DNA of 64,000 nucleotides from Candidatus Tepidifontimicrobium thermophilum. GTDB lineage: Bacteria; Sysuimicrobiota; Sysuimicrobiia; Sysuimicrobiales; Sysuimicrobiaceae. The notes under the pieces were generated by a model. That model was not told the DNA's origin. It saw nothing but the letters and a program-made list of their open reading frames with translations, and ran no database searches. Location of the stretch: the NCBI GenBank assembly GCA_031296405.1, contig JAVKKH010000002.1, forward strand, positions 62,001 to 126,000. The letters are read 5' to 3'. Positions 22,071-64,000 of this stretch are shown here, piece by piece. Positions within the stretch are counted from its first letter, which is position 1. Each line of letters starts with the position of its first letter. The translations under genes and the position numbers were made by a program.

Positions 22071-24707
22071 ATGTTCTGGCGGCGGAAAACCCACGTTGAC
22101 GACCCCAGGGCGGCGGAAGCCTCCGAGCGCCTGGCGGCGGTGCTGCGGGCCGTCTCAGACGCGGTGCTGGAGGTGGACGAGCACGGCGTGGTGGTGGCCG
22201 CCAACCGCGCCGCGGCCGACCTGGTAGGTCTCGGGCCAGGATCCGTAGTGGGCCTGCCGTTCCGGGCGCTCACGGACGGCTCTGCGGAGGCCCTCCACGT
22301 GCTAGAGGAGTCGCGGCGGCGCAAGCGGTGGACCGGGGAGTTGAGCCTCCGCCGCGCTGACGGGAGCGTCGTCCAAGCGTCCGCCCGCGCCGAGGCCGCG
22401 GGCCGGTCCGTGGTTTGGTCCATCACGCCGCCGGGGGCGGTGGGAGGGCGGGAACTGGCTTCCCACGTCCGACAGGCCCTGCACGACTTCCCCCTGCCTG
22501 CACAGGCGCTCGACCTGGACGGCCGGGTCATCGCCACCAACCGCGCCTGGGTAGACCTGTTCGGCCAAGGGCCGCCCCCGTCGGGGGAGCCGCCCAACGC
22601 ACTCCGGGGTGGCTCGGTGTTCGGCCCCCAGCACCGTAGCGCCCTGCAAGACGCGCTGCGGGGGCAGGCGGTCAGGCTGCAGAACTTCCCGTGGCCGCCG
22701 CCCGACGCCCGCCGCCCAGGACCCCCTTCCAGGACCCTGGAGGTGCTGCTGGCACCCATACGTGACCCCCAGGGACGCCTCCAGTTCGTGCTGGCCACCG
22801 CCCTGGACATCACCGAGCAGCGGCGCCTGGAAGAGGAGCTGCGGGAGTCGGAAGCGCGCTACCGCACCCTCATCGAGGAGTCACCCGACGGGGTGTTCCT
22901 CTTGGAGGACGGGCTGTTCCGGTTCGTCAACCGCCGGTTCCTGCAGATGTTCCGGACCACGTCCGCGGAGTGCGTGGACCGGCTCGGCCCCCTGGCGTTG
23001 TGCGCGCCCGAGGACCGCCCCAAGCTGGCCAACTACCTGCGGGAACGGCTCGCTTCCCCTTCCCCGGGGGAGGCAGTGGGCTTCGTGGGCCTCCGCCCCG
23101 ACGGAAGCCGGCTGGAGTGCGAGCTACAGGCCAACCGGGTGGTCCTCCGGGGCAAACCCATGTTGCTGGGGACCGTGCGGGATCTTACAGAGCACCGGCG
23201 CGTGGCGGACATGCTGCACTTCCAGGCCAGCCTGCTGGAACAGGTGCAGGACGCCATCGTGGCCACGGACTGGGACGGGCGGGTGGTGTACTGGAACCGT
23301 GCCGCGGAGGCTCTGTACGGGTGGCTGGCCAGCGACGCCCTGGGCCGCGACTTCGACTCCCTGGTTCAGCCCGAGGCGCGGGACAGCCTCGCGCGCCTGC
23401 GCCAGCACCTCCTGCGGGACGGCACCTGGCGCGGGGAGCTGCGGCACCGCACCGCGGACGGCCAGGTCAGCTGGCTGTCCGCCTCCCTCTCAGTCCAGCG
23501 GGACGCTCAGGGGAGGCCGGTGGGCGTGCTCGGTGTGTACCGCGACATCACCGCCAACAAGCGCCTGGAAGAGGAACTCCTGCAGGCGCAGAAGATGGAG
23601 AGTATCGGTACCCTCGCAGGGGGCATCGCCCACGACTTCAACAACATCCTCGGGACCATCGTGGGCTACCTGGGGTTGCTGAAGGAGGAACTGCCCGGCA
23701 CCCCGGAGTTGCAGCGCTACTTTGATGTCCTGGAGCGGTCAGCCCTGCGTGCCTCCGAGCTGACCCGCCAGCTGCTGGGCTTCGCCCGCAGGGGCAAGTT
23801 CGAGGTCCGTCCCCTGGACGTAGCCCGCCTGTGCTCCGAGGTCACGGAGCTGTTCCGCAGCACCCTGGACCCCCGCATCGAGCTGCGCACGCGCTTTCCC
23901 TCCGACCTGCCCATGGTGGAGGGGGACGCCAGCCAGCTGCACCAGGCGGTCCTCAACCTGTGCATGAACGCCCGCGACGCCATGCCCGACGGCGGGGTCC
24001 TCGAGCTGGTCCTGCAACCGGTCATCGCACCGGACCCCACCTCCGGGGAACCGCCCGTCCTGCGGCCGTACGTGTGCCTGACCGTGCGGGACACGGGTGT
24101 GGGGATGGACGAGCACGTCAAGGCCCGCATGTTCGAACCCTTCTTCACCACGAAGGGACCCGGAAAGGGGACCGGGCTCGGGCTGGCGATGGTGTACGGG
24201 ATCGTCCGCAACCACGGGGGGTTTCTGGAGGTGGACAGCGAAGTGGGGAAGGGCACCGCGGTGCGGATGTACCTGCCGGTGGCAAGCGGCGCGGCGGAAC
24301 CCGAGGAGGCGGGGGAGGCGGAGGTGGACGGAGGAGCGGGGGAGACCATCCTGGTGGTGGACGACGAGGAGCCCCTGTGCAACCTGCTTCGGGACGTGCT
24401 GACCCGCCGCGGCTACCGGGTGCTGGTGGCGACGGACGGGCAGGAAGCGCTGCGCCTGTACCAGGAGCACGCGGGCCGGATCGACCTAGTGATCCTGGAC
24501 ATGACCATGCCCGGCCTTTCCGGGACCCAGACCTTCGACGCCCTGCGGGCCCTGGACCCGCGCGTCCGGATCCTGCTCACCAGCGGCTACACGCAGGAGC
24601 GCGCCGCCCGCGACGCTGTGGCCCGGGGAGCGAAGGGCTTCCTGCAGAAGCCGTTCCTGATCAGCGAACTGGCGGCCCGGGTGCGGGAAGCCCTGCAGGA
24701 CGACTGA
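22071..24707 (+). CDS. Multi-PAS hybrid histidine kinase with C-terminal receiver
   Basis: 878 residues, no membrane segments. Four PAS-like units are visible (about 15-130, 145-265, 270-390, 395-515), then HisKA with phospho-acceptor His521 in GGIAHDFNNILG, an HATPase with NARDAMPDGG, DTGVGMD and GTGLGLAMVYG, and a receiver domain with Asp810 in VILDMTMPG. The receiver at the C-terminus with no output domain implies phosphotransfer elsewhere or feedback. Signal unknown. Confidence 0.93.
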   Translation: MFWRRKTHVDDPRAAEASERLAAVLRAVSDAVLEVDEHGVVVAANRAAADLVGLGPGSVVGLPFRALTDGSAEALHVLEESRRRKRWTGELSLRRADGSVVQASARAEAAGRSVVWSITPPGAVGGRELASHVRQALHDFPLPAQALDLDGRVIATNRAWVDLFGQGPPPSGEPPNALRGGSVFGPQHRSALQDALRGQAVRLQNFPWPPPDARRPGPPSRTLEVLLAPIRDPQGRLQFVLATALDITEQRRLEEELRESEARYRTLIEESPDGVFLLEDGLFRFVNRRFLQMFRTTSAECVDRLGPLALCAPEDRPKLANYLRERLASPSPGEAVGFVGLRPDGSRLECELQANRVVLRGKPMLLGTVRDLTEHRRVADMLHFQASLLEQVQDAIVATDWDGRVVYWNRAAEALYGWLASDALGRDFDSLVQPEARDSLARLRQHLLRDGTWRGELRHRTADGQVSWLSASLSVQRDAQGRPVGVLGVYRDITANKRLEEELLQAQKMESIGTLAGGIAHDFNNILGTIVGYLGLLKEELPGTPELQRYFDVLERSALRASELTRQLLGFARRGKFEVRPLDVARLCSEVTELFRSTLDPRIELRTRFPSDLPMVEGDASQLHQAVLNLCMNARDAMPDGGVLELVLQPVIAPDPTSGEPPVLRPYVCLTVRDTGVGMDEHVKARMFEPFFTTKGPGKGTGLGLAMVYGIVRNHGGFLEVDSEVGKGTAVRMYLPVASGAAEPEEAGEAEVDGGAGETILVVDDEEPLCNLLRDVLTRRGYRVLVATDGQEALRLYQEHAGRIDLVILDMTMPGLSGTQTFDALRALDPRVRILLTSGYTQERAARDAVARGAKGFLQKPFLISELAARVREALQDD

Positions 24708-26963: not shown

Positions 26964-26992
26964 TTGACACCGCACGGCGCCCCGCGTAAGAT
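26964..26992 (+). promoter_or_regulatory. Promoter of tRNA-Asn
   Basis: TTGACA (26964-26969), 17-base spacer, TAAGAT (26987-26992), 23 bases before the mature 5' end of the tRNA. Confidence 0.7.
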
Positions 26993-27015: not shown

Positions 27016-27090
27016 TCCGGCGTAGCTCAATGGTAGAGCACCTGGCTGTTAACCAGGGGGTTGTAGGTTCGAGTCCTACCGCCGGAGCCA
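27016..27090 (+). tRNA. tRNA-Asn (GTT)
   Basis: Cloverleaf with acceptor TCCGGCG/CGCCGGA, D-loop AGCTCAATGGTAGAGC, anticodon loop CTGTTAA with GTT, T-loop GGTTCGAGTCC, discriminator G and encoded CCA. 75 bases including CCA. Confidence 0.97.
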
Positions 27091-27216
27091 ACCCCTAAAG
27101 GCCACCTACCGAACACACGCCTTGCGCCTGCGCCGGCCCGCTAGAACCCTGCCGGCCGCCCGGGTGGCAAGGAACTTGCTACACCCACGTTGGCGAGCGA
27201 CGTGGAGGTCTGACCC

Positions 27217-28656
27217 GTGGTACCCACCGGACACCGGCCCCTGGGGGAGATCCTCCTCCAGGCCCGTGTCATCAGTCCTCAGCAGCTGGAGCAGGCGGTG
27301 ACCTTCCAGCTGCAGCACGGCATCCGCCTCGGCGAGGCCCTGGTCCGCCTCGGCTTCGCCACGGAGGACGATGTGGCCTGGGCCCTCAGCACCCAGCTGG
27401 GGTTGCCCTACGTACACCTGCGGCCCGACATGGTGGATCCGGAGGCTTTGCAGCTGCTGCCGGTGGACACCCAGCGCCGGCTCGGGGTCCTACCGCTCCT
27501 CGCAGGGCAGGGTGAGCTGGCGGTGGCCCTAGCGGACCCCACGGACCACCGGGTGCTGGCGGAGGTCCAGCGCCTCACGGGGATGCGGCCCTGTGCCGTG
27601 GTGGCCCTGGCCTCCAACATCCGGGAGGTCGTGGATGCACTGGCCGGGGCGCCACCTCCCGCACGGAACGGCGACCTGGCCTTGCGCCTCGTGCTCAGCA
27701 ACGCGGCCCAGAAGGGAGCTACCCACGTGTACGTGGAGCCGCTCCCCGGGAGGGCGGTGCGGGTTCGCTACCGCACCCCAGCGGGCGTGTTCCCCGCGGA
27801 CGGTCCCCAGGTCCCTTGGGAGTCCCTCGCTGCGCTCGCGGATCGCGCGGATCCCCGGGGCGTGCTCGCGTTTGAGGTGGTCCTCGCCGACAGGTCGGTG
27901 GAGGCGGCGCTGCGGCTCGTGCGGACGCGGTGGGGAGCAGGGCTGGCGGGCCCCCTCAGGCCGGTTCCCGCCGACCCGCTCCAGGACGAGGTGGGCCTGC
28001 CGGCGGAGGTGTGGGACTCCGCCCTCCAGGGTCTGCACGCGGGCGGGCTGCTGGCGGTAGCCTGCCCGGAGGCGGGGCTGCGGGCCCGCCTGCTGCGGTC
28101 CCTGGCCGCGCGGGTGGCCTCCCGATGGGGCGGGATCGTGGTCCTGGCTGGGGCCGGTGGGGTTCGCCCGGTCCCGGCCGTGGTGGAAAGCCCCGAAGCC
28201 GACGCCCCCCTGTGGCAGCAGGCGCGTCCGGACGCCCTGGTGGCGGACAGCACGGCGCCCAGCGTCTTGCGCCAGCTACTCCTGGGGTGGTGGCCGGGCC
28301 AGAGGCTCGTCCTGGGCCTGCCGGGTTACCGGGCCCGTCACGTCCACGCCGCTCTGGGTGCGGAAGTGGTGGTGCCCGTTCGCGGGGTCCTGGCCGCCGT
28401 GCCCGTGCCGGCCCTGTGCCGGTGCGCCACGGTGCACCACACCCCACCGGCGTGGCCGACCCCGAAGGTCCCCGCGCGGTGGGCTTCTCCCGGGGGCTGC
28501 GACAGTTGCCGGTACACGGGCTTTTCCGACCAGGCGGTGGCGTACGAGTGGGACCCCGCCCAGGGACAAGGGGTGCCCCTGGAGGCCTCCGCCCGCCGCC
28601 TCGTGGAGCAGCTGCGGGCAGCCCCTGAGTTCCTCGTACCGGTCCTGGAGGGATGA
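27217..28656 (+). CDS. PilB/GspE-like protein lacking a Walker A motif (pseudo-ATPase)
   Basis: 479 residues. Residues 1-150 are a clear MshEN/GspE N-terminal domain (LGEILLQARVISPQQLEQAV; GLPYVHLRP). The rest follows the PilB layout (VLSNAAQKGATHVYVEP equals the usual ASDIHIEP region) and keeps a C-terminal Cys motif (CRCATVHH...CDSCRYTGF). Where the P-loop should be it reads VACPEAGLRARLL, with no GxxxxGK[ST], and the Walker B and His boxes are also gone. It probably cannot hydrolyse ATP; MshEN domains can bind cyclic-di-GMP. GTG start with GGAGGT at 7 bases; stop overlaps pilT (ATGA). Confidence 0.82.
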   Translation: MVPTGHRPLGEILLQARVISPQQLEQAVTFQLQHGIRLGEALVRLGFATEDDVAWALSTQLGLPYVHLRPDMVDPEALQLLPVDTQRRLGVLPLLAGQGELAVALADPTDHRVLAEVQRLTGMRPCAVVALASNIREVVDALAGAPPPARNGDLALRLVLSNAAQKGATHVYVEPLPGRAVRVRYRTPAGVFPADGPQVPWESLAALADRADPRGVLAFEVVLADRSVEAALRLVRTRWGAGLAGPLRPVPADPLQDEVGLPAEVWDSALQGLHAGGLLAVACPEAGLRARLLRSLAARVASRWGGIVVLAGAGGVRPVPAVVESPEADAPLWQQARPDALVADSTAPSVLRQLLLGWWPGQRLVLGLPGYRARHVHAALGAEVVVPVRGVLAAVPVPALCRCATVHHTPPAWPTPKVPARWASPGGCDSCRYTGFSDQAVAYEWDPAQGQGVPLEASARRLVEQLRAAPEFLVPVLEG

Positions 28657-29747
28657 CCTTGGACATCACGGAACTGCTGATCCTGGCAAAGCAGAAGGGC
28701 GCGTCCGACCTTCACCTCACCGTGGGAGTACCGCCCAAGCTCCGCGTGAACGGCGAGCTGGTGGACGTGGAGGGCTGGCCCTCCCTCTCCCGGGAAGACG
28801 TTCACGCCATGGTGTACGACATCCTCACGGACGCCCAGAAGGCCCGCTTTGAGGAACACCTGGACCTGGACTTCTCGGTGGAGCTCGCGAACCTCGGGCG
28901 GTTCCGGGTCAACGTGTTCCTCCAGCGGCTGGGCGAGGGGGCGGTGTTCCGCCTCATCCCCTCGCGCATCAAGACCATCCGGGAGCTCGGCCTGCCGCCG
29001 GTGCTGGAGGACCTAGCCCTGCGGGACCGGGGCCTCATCGTGGTCACCGGCCCGACGGGCTCCGGGAAATCCACCACCCTGGCGGCCATGGTGGACCTCA
29101 TCAACGAGCGCCGTACTGCCCACATCATCACCCTGGAGGACCCCATCGAGTTCGTGCACGCGCACAAGCGCAGCGTCGTCAACCAGCGGGAAGTGGGCGT
29201 GCACGCCCGGTCCTTCGCCGCGGCCCTGCGGTCCGCCCTGCGAGAGGACCCGGACGTGATCCTGGTGGGAGAGATGCGGGATCTGGAGACCATTGCCCTG
29301 GCCCTGACCGCGGCGGAGACGGGCCACCTGGTGCTGAGTACCCTGCACACCAGCGGCGCCGCGCAGACCGTCAACCGCATCATCGACGTGTTCCCCAGCC
29401 ACCAGCAGGAGCAGGTACGGGTGCAGCTGGCCGAGTCCCTGGTGGGCGTGGTCGCGCAGCTCCTGCTGCCCACCGCGGACGGCACCGGCCGCGTGCCTGC
29501 GGTGGAGGTCATGGTGGCCACCCCCGCCATCCGCAACCTGATCCGGGAGAACAAGGTCCACCAGATCCCCTCCGCCATCCAGACGGGGCTGAAGGACGGG
29601 ATGCAGAGCCTGGACCAGAGCCTGCGACACCTGCTGAAGACGGGCCGGATCACCGCGGAGGTGGCCTACCGCTGGGCCGTGGACAAGCACGCCTTCGCCC
29701 GGGAAGCACCCACCGCGGCTTTGGCCTCCGCGTGGGGCACGCCGTGA
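28653..29747 (+). CDS. pilT: Type IV pilus retraction ATPase PilT
   Basis: 364-residue PilT. ASDLHLTVG and PKLRVNGEL (N-terminal PAS-like part), Walker A GPTGSGKST with Lys139, Asp box TLEDPIEF, Walker B ILVGEMRDLETIALAL, and the His box TGHLVLSTLHT are all intact. Retracts type IV pili or similar filaments by depolymerising pilin. Overlaps the pseudo-PilB gene upstream (ATGA) and the second PilT gene downstream (GTGA). Confidence 0.95.
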   Translation: MTLDITELLILAKQKGASDLHLTVGVPPKLRVNGELVDVEGWPSLSREDVHAMVYDILTDAQKARFEEHLDLDFSVELANLGRFRVNVFLQRLGEGAVFRLIPSRIKTIRELGLPPVLEDLALRDRGLIVVTGPTGSGKSTTLAAMVDLINERRTAHIITLEDPIEFVHAHKRSVVNQREVGVHARSFAAALRSALREDPDVILVGEMRDLETIALALTAAETGHLVLSTLHTSGAAQTVNRIIDVFPSHQQEQVRVQLAESLVGVVAQLLLPTADGTGRVPAVEVMVATPAIRNLIRENKVHQIPSAIQTGLKDGMQSLDQSLRHLLKTGRITAEVAYRWAVDKHAFAREAPTAALASAWGTP

Positions 29748-31160: not shown

Positions 31161-31229
31161 CAAGCATGTGACCGGACTGTGACGCGGACGCTCCACCTTA
31201 ACGGCGAAGCCCGAGGAGGTGGTGGCCAG

Positions 31230-31697
31230 ATGCGCACGCTTGTCTGGACCGCGGCTTTGGTCCTTTGCCTGGGAGCCGTGGTGTGGGCAGACCCAGCAGG
31301 AGAGCCAGGAGGTGGAGTGGGCGAGGAGGCCCTGAGGTTCTACCAGCAGGGAGTGGAGTACTCCCGCCGCCAGCAGTGGGACCAGGCGGTCCGCGCCTAT
31401 CTGCAGGCGGTCCGGCTTGACCCCCGGTTCGTTGAGGCGTGGACGAACCTGGGGTACGCGTACCGCAAGCTCCGTAACTACGCGCGCTCTGTAGAGGCGT
31501 ACCGCCGCGCCTTGAGCGTCCGGCCCGACTACGCGCCCGCCCACGACTACCTGGCCCGGACGTACCTGGCCATGGGGGACCGCCAGAAGGCCACGGAGCA
31601 CTATGAGATCCTCCGCCGCCTGGACCCTCAGTTGGCCGACCGCCTCCTTCGGGCCATCCAGGCCAACGACCCGGACCTGGAGAGTTCCGTGTACTGA
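31230..31697 (+). CDS. Secreted TPR-repeat protein
   Basis: 155 residues. MRTLVWTAALVLCLGAVVWA is a signal peptide; three TPR units follow (about 36-69 YQQGVEYSRRQQWDQAVRAY, 70-103 WTNLGYAYRKLRNYARSVEAY, 104-137 HDYLARTYLAMGDRQKATEHY). Likely an extracytoplasmic protein-interaction scaffold. AGGAGG is about 9 bases before the ATG. It follows the pilus motor genes and the toxin remnant, so a role in pilus assembly is possible but unsupported. Confidence 0.85.
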   Translation: MRTLVWTAALVLCLGAVVWADPAGEPGGGVGEEALRFYQQGVEYSRRQQWDQAVRAYLQAVRLDPRFVEAWTNLGYAYRKLRNYARSVEAYRRALSVRPDYAPAHDYLARTYLAMGDRQKATEHYEILRRLDPQLADRLLRAIQANDPDLESSVY

Positions 31698-31702
31698 ACC
31701 CG

Positions 31703-32086
31703 GTGGGAAGGGACCTCGGCCTCCTGCTGGTCCGCGTGGCTCTAGTCGCCACATTCATACCCTACGGGTACGCGAAGTGGGCCGGGGGCATGGATCGCTT
31801 CGTGGGTCTGCTCATCGCTACGGGGTTCCCGGCCCCTGAGGCGCTGGCGCGCGCGGTGGCCGCGCTGGAGCTGGGAGGCGGAGTGCTGCTCCTGCTGGGG
31901 CTTGGGACCCGCCTAGTGGCGGCCCTGCTGGCCGCGGAGATGGCGGTGGCCATCCTGCGGGTGCTCTGGCCCCGCGGCTACCTGGGTGGCTTTGTCCTCG
32001 AGACGGTACTCTTGCTGTGTGCCCTCGCCCTGGTGGTGGCGGGAGGAGGCCGCTGGTCCCTCGGGTCCGGCCCCCTCTCCCGTTGA
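31703..32086 (+). CDS. DoxX-family membrane protein
   Basis: 127 residues with four hydrophobic segments (LGLLLVRVALVATFIPYGYAKW; ALARAVAALELGGGVLLLLGL; VAALLAAEMAVAILRVLW; ETVLLLCALALVVAGG). The GYAKW and ELGGG elements fit DoxX/DoxD-like proteins linked to redox or terminal-oxidase functions. GTG start 5 bases after the TPR gene stop, so co-transcription is likely. Confidence 0.83.
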   Translation: MGRDLGLLLVRVALVATFIPYGYAKWAGGMDRFVGLLIATGFPAPEALARAVAALELGGGVLLLLGLGTRLVAALLAAEMAVAILRVLWPRGYLGGFVLETVLLLCALALVVAGGGRWSLGSGPLSR

Positions 32087-62993: not shown

Positions 62994-64000
62994 TTGGCCA
63001 CGACCGTGGTCCCTCGGTCTAGCGTTGCGCGGCCCGGCGCGTATCGAGTGTACACCCTCGCGTGGGCCGGAGCGGGGGTGGTGTTGGTGTTGCTGTCCGC
63101 GCCCGCACTCCCGCGCTTCCCTCCCGAGTACCTGCTGTTCGCCGCGATCTCCCTGTCCGGACACGTGTTCTTCGTCCTGGACCTGCCCGGCGGCCTGCGC
63201 TTGAGCCTTCAGGCCATCCTGGCACCGGTGTGGCTGTACGGCTGGAAAGCCGCACCACCCCTGTTCCTGCTCACCCTGCCCCTCGTGCTGCGCAACAGCC
63301 GCGGGGATCCGCTCCGTGCGCTCCTGTACTTCGGAAACGGCTGCGTGTGGGCCGCTACCGCCGGCAACCTTTTCGCGCTCCTCCGGCCCGGCCCTTCCCC
63401 GCAGCCCACCTGGTCCGAGCTAGCCTCCGTGCTGGTCTCCGGCGGGGTGTTCACTGTGGGCAACTTCCTCGTGGCCGCCTTCGGCCGCTACCTGGCCACC
63501 GGGGACGCCCGGGTCCTGCAGCTCCGTCAGGCCCTCGAGGGGCTCACCCTGGTCTTCTCCGGGTACGTGCTGCTCGCCTACCTTCTGCTCCTCGCCCTGC
63601 AGACCGGACCGGCAGCTGCCTTTCTGGCGGTAGGCGTGTGGCTGCTGACCGCAGTGGCCATGAAGGGGCTGGCGGAGACCCGGCGGGCCAACGAGCGCCT
63701 GCAGGAAGCCTTGCGGGAACTGGAGCGCCTCACCGTCACAGACCCCATGACGGGGCTGTGGAACCGCAGGCACTTCGTGCAGGTCCTCCCGAAGGAGCTG
63801 CACAGGCACGCCCGGACCGGCCGGCCCCTCAGCCTTCTGGTGGTGGACCTCCGCAGCCTCAAGCACGTCAACGACACCTACGGGCACGAAGCGGGCGACC
63901 GGGCTCTGCAGCGCGCCGCCGAGGTATTCCGGGATCGGCTGCGCGGCTCCGACCTGGCGTTCCGCATCGGCGGGGACGAGTTCGCCCTGCTGCTTCCGGA
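62994..64000 (+). CDS. Membrane GGDEF diguanylate cyclase (3' truncated by window edge)
   Basis: At least 335 residues, running off the window. Residues about 15-225 hold six or seven membrane helices (WAGAGVVLVLLSAPALP; FFVLDLPGGLRLSLQAILAPVWLYG; YVLLAYLLLLALQ), then a coiled linker and a GGDEF domain starting VTDPMTGLWNRRHF with metal/substrate motif NDTYGHEAGD and the intact GGDEF at 63969-63983. Makes cyclic-di-GMP from GTP. TTG 62994 is chosen because GGGAGG lies 7 bases upstream. Divergent from the decarboxylase gene. Confidence 0.9.
   Translation, partial: MATTVVPRSSVARPGAYRVYTLAWAGAGVVLVLLSAPALPRFPPEYLLFAAISLSGHVFFVLDLPGGLRLSLQAILAPVWLYGWKAAPPLFLLTLPLVLRNSRGDPLRALLYFGNGCVWAATAGNLFALLRPGPSPQPTWSELASVLVSGGVFTVGNFLVAAFGRYLATGDARVLQLRQALEGLTLVFSGYVLLAYLLLLALQTGPAAAFLAVGVWLLTAVAMKGLAETRRANERLQEALRELERLTVTDPMTGLWNRRHFVQVLPKELHRHARTGRPLSLLVVDLRSLKHVNDTYGHEAGDRALQRAAEVFRDRLRGSDLAFRIGGDEFALLLP

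Follow-up and report, generated by a model that had tools for sequence, protein, structure and literature searches.

We identified a gene, pseudo-pilB, whose product belongs to a predicted pseudoenzyme branch of the PilB/GspE motor family, probably unable to run a normal ATP cycle as judged from its motifs. The protein is under purifying selection after clade-wide loss of these catalytic motifs, and its gene is coupled to pilT1 and pilT2. In our best reading, to which we give a probability of roughly 0.52, pseudo-PilB is a c-di-GMP-responsive pseudo-motor (in relatives also phosphorylation-responsive) that partners PilT1 (and PilT2) under signal control and gates retraction. The gene lies in a 64,000-nucleotide stretch of DNA (the window; G+C about 71%) from a 2.4 Mb genome assembly of the phylum CSP1-3, now Sysuimicrobiota, which has been described (PMC11604079). 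Genomes and contigs are labelled below with G- and L-numbers, respectively.

Results

pseudo-pilB is an open gene coupled to two intact pilT genes

The locus contains the following features.

26964-26992 (+): sigma-70-like promoter (TTGACA-17-TAAGAT; consensus match only) preceding both tRNA-Asn and the pseudo-pilB operon
27016-27090 (+): tRNA-Asn(GTT), 126 nt upstream of pseudo-pilB
27204-27208 (+): putative ribosome-binding site GGAGG ahead of pseudo-pilB, read from the sequence
27217-28656 (+): pseudo-pilB, an open reading frame of 479 amino acids encoding MshEN and a degenerate PilB/GspE ATPase domain
28653-29747 (+): PilT1, an intact retraction ATPase with AIRNLIRE, starting inside the pseudo-pilB stop codon
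29732-30829 (+): PilT2, intact and PilU-like (IRELVRRG replaces AIRNLIRE)

The pseudo-pilB frame starts with GTG and has a codon-position G+C of 0.83/0.53/0.88, which is gene-like with a weaker contrast than in the neighbours. The promoter pattern was found once, against 0.2 expected. The same tRNA-Asn is located upstream of pseudo-pilB in G001, G003 and G004, and in G005 one gene lies between the two. With tRNA-Asn directly upstream and a good -35/-10 pair before it, the tRNA promoter may drive the pseudo-pilB operon by read-through.

Translational coupling to two intact PilT motors, claimed by the sequence-only reading, was borne out. The pseudo-pilB stop TGA overlaps the pilT1 ATG (28653-28656), pilT1 and pilT2 overlap by 16 nt, and the Walker A, ASP, Walker B and His boxes of both motors are all intact. 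Directly 3' of pseudo-pilB, pilT1 is present in 14/14 loci with readable context, from three families; its extrapolated starts fall between -33 and +14 nt relative to the pseudo-pilB stop in all of them. pilT2 comes next in 12 of the 14 (exceptions, G020 and G039). Its seeming absence from G003 was a gene-calling miss, and pilT2 is present there. Unusual PilT2 P-loops were seen in G021 (GQAGAGKS, L163:8330-9604) and G020 (GHAGTGKS, L166:6736-7839). At least five genomes carry a pilT1-pilT2 pair without an adjacent pseudo-PilB gene, so pseudo-PilB is not required for those motors. G020 and G039 have a second pilT1-pilT2 pair elsewhere, yet pseudo-pilB is still coupled to pilT1. Synteny of this kind shows co-expression but not physical contact; the products of one operon could serve the same pilus and never meet. 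Downstream of pilT2 the window also encodes co-oriented TPR and DoxX proteins (31179-32086); no match to either was seen next to the operon among the relatives compared.

pseudo-PilB has the descent and predicted fold of PilB

Pfam analysis of the window protein gave an MshEN match (PF05157) of 62.4 bits (cut-off 23.1; E 4e-17), in agreement with the MshEN conservation noted earlier, and no match to the T2SSE ATPase. Against the PilB model TIGR02538 pseudo-PilB scored 51.6 bits, far under the cut-off of 675.7. The pilT_fam model (TIGR01420) had no match in pseudo-PilB and scored 496 bits with PilT1 and 463 bits with PilT2. A family profile of pseudo-PilB matched PilF and PilB from end to end (E 2.6e-92 and 3.9e-67, respectively). 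From profile, predicted fold and alignment, the part behind MshEN is assigned as follows.

27676-28653 (+): degenerate N2D and ATPase domain, residues about 154-479

AlphaFold models were obtained for the window protein (pLDDT 85.6, pTM 0.51) and its G023 relative (pLDDT 81.1, pTM 0.61). GspE and PilB were the top Foldseek matches of both, with a probability of 1.00. The window model gave only a modest TM of 0.40-0.46 over the query with its best matches and a high rmsd, which we attribute to uncertain placing of the domains. The core of the G023 model reached a TM of 0.80 of the PilB chain in PDB 5tsh. Profiles and models thus place pseudo-PilB within PilB/GspE by descent and predicted fold, with PilB rather than PilT.

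The catalytic motifs are lost throughout the clade

We aligned 14 readable pseudo-PilB sequences with 11 intact PilB/GspE proteins from the phylum. The sites concerned in the window protein, as placed by alignment, are listed below.

28057-28095 (+): replaced Walker A loop VACPEAGLRARLL, residues 281-293, with the invariant R289 at the P-loop Lys position
28246-28248 (+): D344 where Walker B has Gly; Ser replaces the catalytic Glu next to it
28417-28509 (+): zinc-type Cys cluster C401, C403, C428 and C431 (CxC + CxxC)

The alignment fixes the Walker A site at residues 281-293, which read exactly as the sequence-only reading had given them. In 14/14 pseudo-PilB proteins GxxxxGK[ST] is absent and [GA][CS]x[DE]xxxR stands instead; all three P-loop glycines are lost, the P-loop Lys is changed to Arg, and an acidic residue (Asp/Glu) is present within the loop. 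The catalytic Glu is likewise lost in all 14, as are both Arg fingers, which in G. metallireducens PilB are R271 and R286 (PMC5424180); the residue match to these two was made here by alignment position. The window protein also lacks the ASP-box acids and the His-box His. The earlier claim that the Walker B and His boxes are missing therefore holds, and so does the view that this is no ordinary extension motor, all catalytic motifs being lost across the whole clade. As for the C-terminal Cys motif of PilB, said to be conserved, its second pair CxxC (C428, C431) is kept and its first pair is not, being CxC (C401, C403) in the window's family; the tetra-Cys motif is CxxC + CxxC in f5 and f7. Common to all 14 are the N2D YR pair, three of the four Cys (with the second CxxC among them) and DPTD in MshEN.

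Judged by alignment, degradation is graded, with f5 and f7 keeping more motif residues than the window's family. The ASP-box Glu is kept in 9/9 members of f5 and f7 and lost in the window's family. The Walker B position reads DD or DN in the same 9/9 and [DE]-[STVA] in the window's family. The His box is lost, and a nearby GH His is present only in 8/9 of the f5/f7 members.

A nucleotide might still be bound in such a rebuilt site, with Arg for Lys, the loop acid and DD in the Walker B of other families, and pseudo-PilB would then be an ATP/ADP sensor. The conserved replacement loop, with its Arg and Asp/Glu in every sequence, would fit this, as would the ASP-box Glu and DD/DN of two families. 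We nevertheless regard an ATP/ADP sensor as improbable, given that all 14 have lost the three glycines and both Arg fingers and that the window's family has neither the ASP-box Glu nor the second Walker B acid.

pseudo-PilB forms an old clade under purifying selection

Orthologues of pseudo-PilB were found in 17 of 43 CSP1-3/Sysuimicrobiota genomes, in families f1, f5 and f7. Some are partial, at contig ends; in the survey for P-loop loss that had been proposed, none of the 14 readable ones has a restored P-loop. Complete pseudo-PilB sequences score 366-562 bits, compared with at most 163 for the P-loop PilBs of the phylum, and the orthologues form a single clade with support of 100/100. A recent loss in one genus was ruled out, the single clade spanning three families. 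Loss of the P-loop is thus old and clade-wide on alignment and tree, a point absent from the sequence-only reading. Presence is patchy: near-complete G006 (same family as the window) and G010 (same genus as G023) have no pseudo-PilB.

Outside the phylum, 343 genomes yielded no orthologue distinguishable from ordinary PilB (best match, 173.6 bits; the 11 best all with a P-loop). Among 80 contigs from many phyla, no P-loop-less relative from outside CSP1-3 was found save L111 (JAUQPW010000011.1), where the P-loop is near-intact. This unrelated MAG encodes a PilB-like protein with the P-loop GPIRSGKM and an altered Walker B, possibly another independent decay.

A sequencing error or frameshift was ruled out because the same loss occurs in 14 sequences of different genomes; it recurs in independent genomes whose identity is 87, 69, 44 and 43%, and in nine that are more distant. 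Within the genus, dN/dS is about 0.29 for pseudo-PilB and 0.07-0.17 for its neighbours; the value of about 0.29 excludes a pseudogene. Faster evolution than that of the neighbours is what a pseudogene or an assembly error would have in its favour, but at least 14 genomes, with identities as low as 27%, have the frame open, and purifying selection acts on a gene with a common replacement motif. Already refuted by these comparative data, such an explanation retains next to no credence.

The MshEN domain carries a predicted c-di-GMP motif

MshEN occupies the N-terminal part of the protein.

27238-27396 (+): predicted c-di-GMP-binding tandem motif (NF053729), residues 8-60; motif I altered by R>P and G>R
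27397-27648 (+): remainder of MshEN (PF05157), residues 61-144, with the invariant DPTD

The NCBIfam c-di-GMP model NF053729 (cut-off 38) scored 59.6 bits with the window protein and 78.6 bits with its G023 relative. We scored the published motif of 22 positions (PMC5013675) and found 16/22 matched in the window, 20/22 in G023 and, among those intact PilBs of the phylum that carry the motif, 16-20. In the window's branch the R>P and G>R changes have eroded motif I. Changes of Arg9 have been reported to cost less than 5-fold in affinity and changes of hydrophobic residues more than 10-fold (PMC5013675). These motif scores would fit c-di-GMP binding by pseudo-PilB of the window's lineage, but with motif I eroded any binding in this branch may be weak or absent.

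MshEN is also found elsewhere, in the NfrB glycosyltransferase and the response regulator Bd2402 for example (PMC5013675), and M. xanthus PilB, which has a signalling role, provides a precedent in EPS control (PMC5544727). Both are in keeping with a second-messenger output protein that works off the pilus motor, for example a c-di-GMP-dependent polysaccharide or envelope scaffold, left in the pilT operon by descent; so is a dN about 2-5 times that of the neighbour genes. Coupling to pilT1 at 14/14 loci, even where G020 and G039 have their second pair, speaks against this, and we consider it quite unlikely.

Signalling genes accompany pseudo-pilB in some relatives

Six relatives (G017, G020, G023, G029, G035 and G039) have an N-terminal receiver (REC) domain on pseudo-PilB. 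The REC calls were read from the sequence; Pfam confirmed those of G023 and G035. Upstream of pseudo-pilB, G017, G023 and G035 encode a hybrid histidine kinase together with a REC-HD-GYP protein (GYP motif present), and G020 encodes a REC-HD-GYP protein and a single-domain REC. HD-GYP proteins are c-di-GMP phosphodiesterases. Compact c-di-GMP/phosphorelay cassettes, attached to pilT, lie upstream of REC-pseudo-pilB at L042:10428-12694, L047:3192-7101 and L049:48-4145; they consist of genes for a hybrid kinase and for REC-HD-GYP, to which L049 adds a single-domain REC. The signalling context is not common to all loci: G015, which has no REC, carries CoxE/XdhC-type genes upstream. The window's family has neither REC on pseudo-PilB nor an HD-GYP context, and its branch, without REC, is further degraded in sequence than the relatives. 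A kinase gene is found at some distance in the window.

22071-24707 (+): multi-PAS hybrid histidine kinase with REC, 2.5 kb upstream, position kept in the family; candidate upstream signal only

Between it and pseudo-pilB are a dehydrogenase gene, a divergent gene and tRNA-Asn.

Pilus and c-di-GMP components are present in the genome

The genome encodes one intact PilB and a third PilT on another contig, five N-methyl pilin starts and eleven GGDEF matches. Two PF00482 matches fall in one frame, read as a single PilC. With PilB, PilT, PilC, pilin starts and GGDEF present, a pilus and c-di-GMP signalling are both plausible. A PF11104 search found no PilM in this genome; it may be too divergent. 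The intact PilB (L037:9258-11723, contig C5) is extended at its N-terminus by a long segment that matches TPR weakly. A GGDEF domain starts in the window (about 63735-64000) and continues past its end, and a second GGDEF is next on the contig.

For the window's motors there seems to be a single platform protein available, PilC. The main rival to our reading is a PilB decoy, in which pseudo-PilB occupies the PilC platform or enters PilB rings as inactive subunits; extension would then stop and co-expressed PilT take over. A fold of PilB rather than PilT and a genome with one PilC frame and one intact PilB agree with a decoy. The interchain Arg specific to the PilB/GspE clade (PMC5424180), kept in 7/9 members of f5 and f7, does so too, but in the window's family it is lost together with the ASP-box Glu. 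Moreover, pseudo-pilB keeps to pilT1; the one intact pilB seen beside it, in G026, is divergent. Data from V. cholerae also speak against mixed hexamers, although these concern PilT/PilU and not PilB (PMC6762196). A decoy is therefore unlikely in our judgement.

Discussion

In the preferred reading, retraction control by a signal-dependent pseudo-motor, c-di-GMP on MshEN would change the shape of pseudo-PilB, and in the six relatives phosphorylation of the fused REC would do so as well. The altered protein may then gate retraction by docking either on the ring of retraction motors or on PilC, the single platform. Within the motor family, precedents are PilU, through its dependence on PilT (PMC6762196), and the signalling role of M. 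xanthus PilB (PMC5544727). Its physical partner would be the ring or PilC, and the effect might be either to raise or to lower retraction. A 'scaffold', as first proposed, is one among several possible modes. More tentatively, pseudo-PilB could be a two-input retraction regulator: a dead PilB ring would read c-di-GMP through MshEN and, in the REC relatives, phosphorylation, and pass its state to the co-translated PilT/PilU-like pair. If this were true, one branch of the pilus motor family would have become a signalling clutch.

Through a conserved dead PilB that is coupled to PilT, second messengers and two-component systems would have a concrete candidate route onto retraction. In the cases reviewed, c-di-GMP acts on pilus extension, via MshEN of the extension ATPases (PMC11656802). 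The pseudoenzyme idea would also extend to PilT/VirB11-type secretion ATPases, for which no described case was found in the literature searched. We found no description of a dead PilB/GspE paralogue that is clade-wide and coupled to PilT; this is weak evidence, as the search covered open-access literature only. MshEN, MshEN response regulators, PilU and pseudoenzymes are each already known.

pseudo-PilB resembles the extension ATPase PilB/PilF (TIGR02538; PDB 6f8l, 5zfr and 5tsh) in MshEN, N2D, ATPase fold and Cys cluster, but lacks Walker A, the catalytic Glu, the His box and the Arg fingers and is coupled to pilT1. Like the MshE/MshEN c-di-GMP receptor (NF053729, PMC5013675), it has two 24-residue motifs with a 5-residue spacer and scores above the curated cut-off; unlike in that receptor, motif I is altered in the window's branch and the ATPase domain behind is degenerate. 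The REC-MshEN fusion of response regulators such as Bdellovibrio Bd2402 (PMC5013675) recurs in the six relatives; these differ in the degenerate PilB ATPase domain behind MshEN and in the coupling of the gene to pilT. An accessory motor dependent on PilT, PilU (PMC6762196, PMC6821130) is likewise a motor-family accessory protein encoded with PilT; it needs PilT, and ATPase-dead PilT still supports it (PMC6762196). The Walker boxes of PilU are functional, whereas pseudo-PilB lacks them and falls in the PilB clade.
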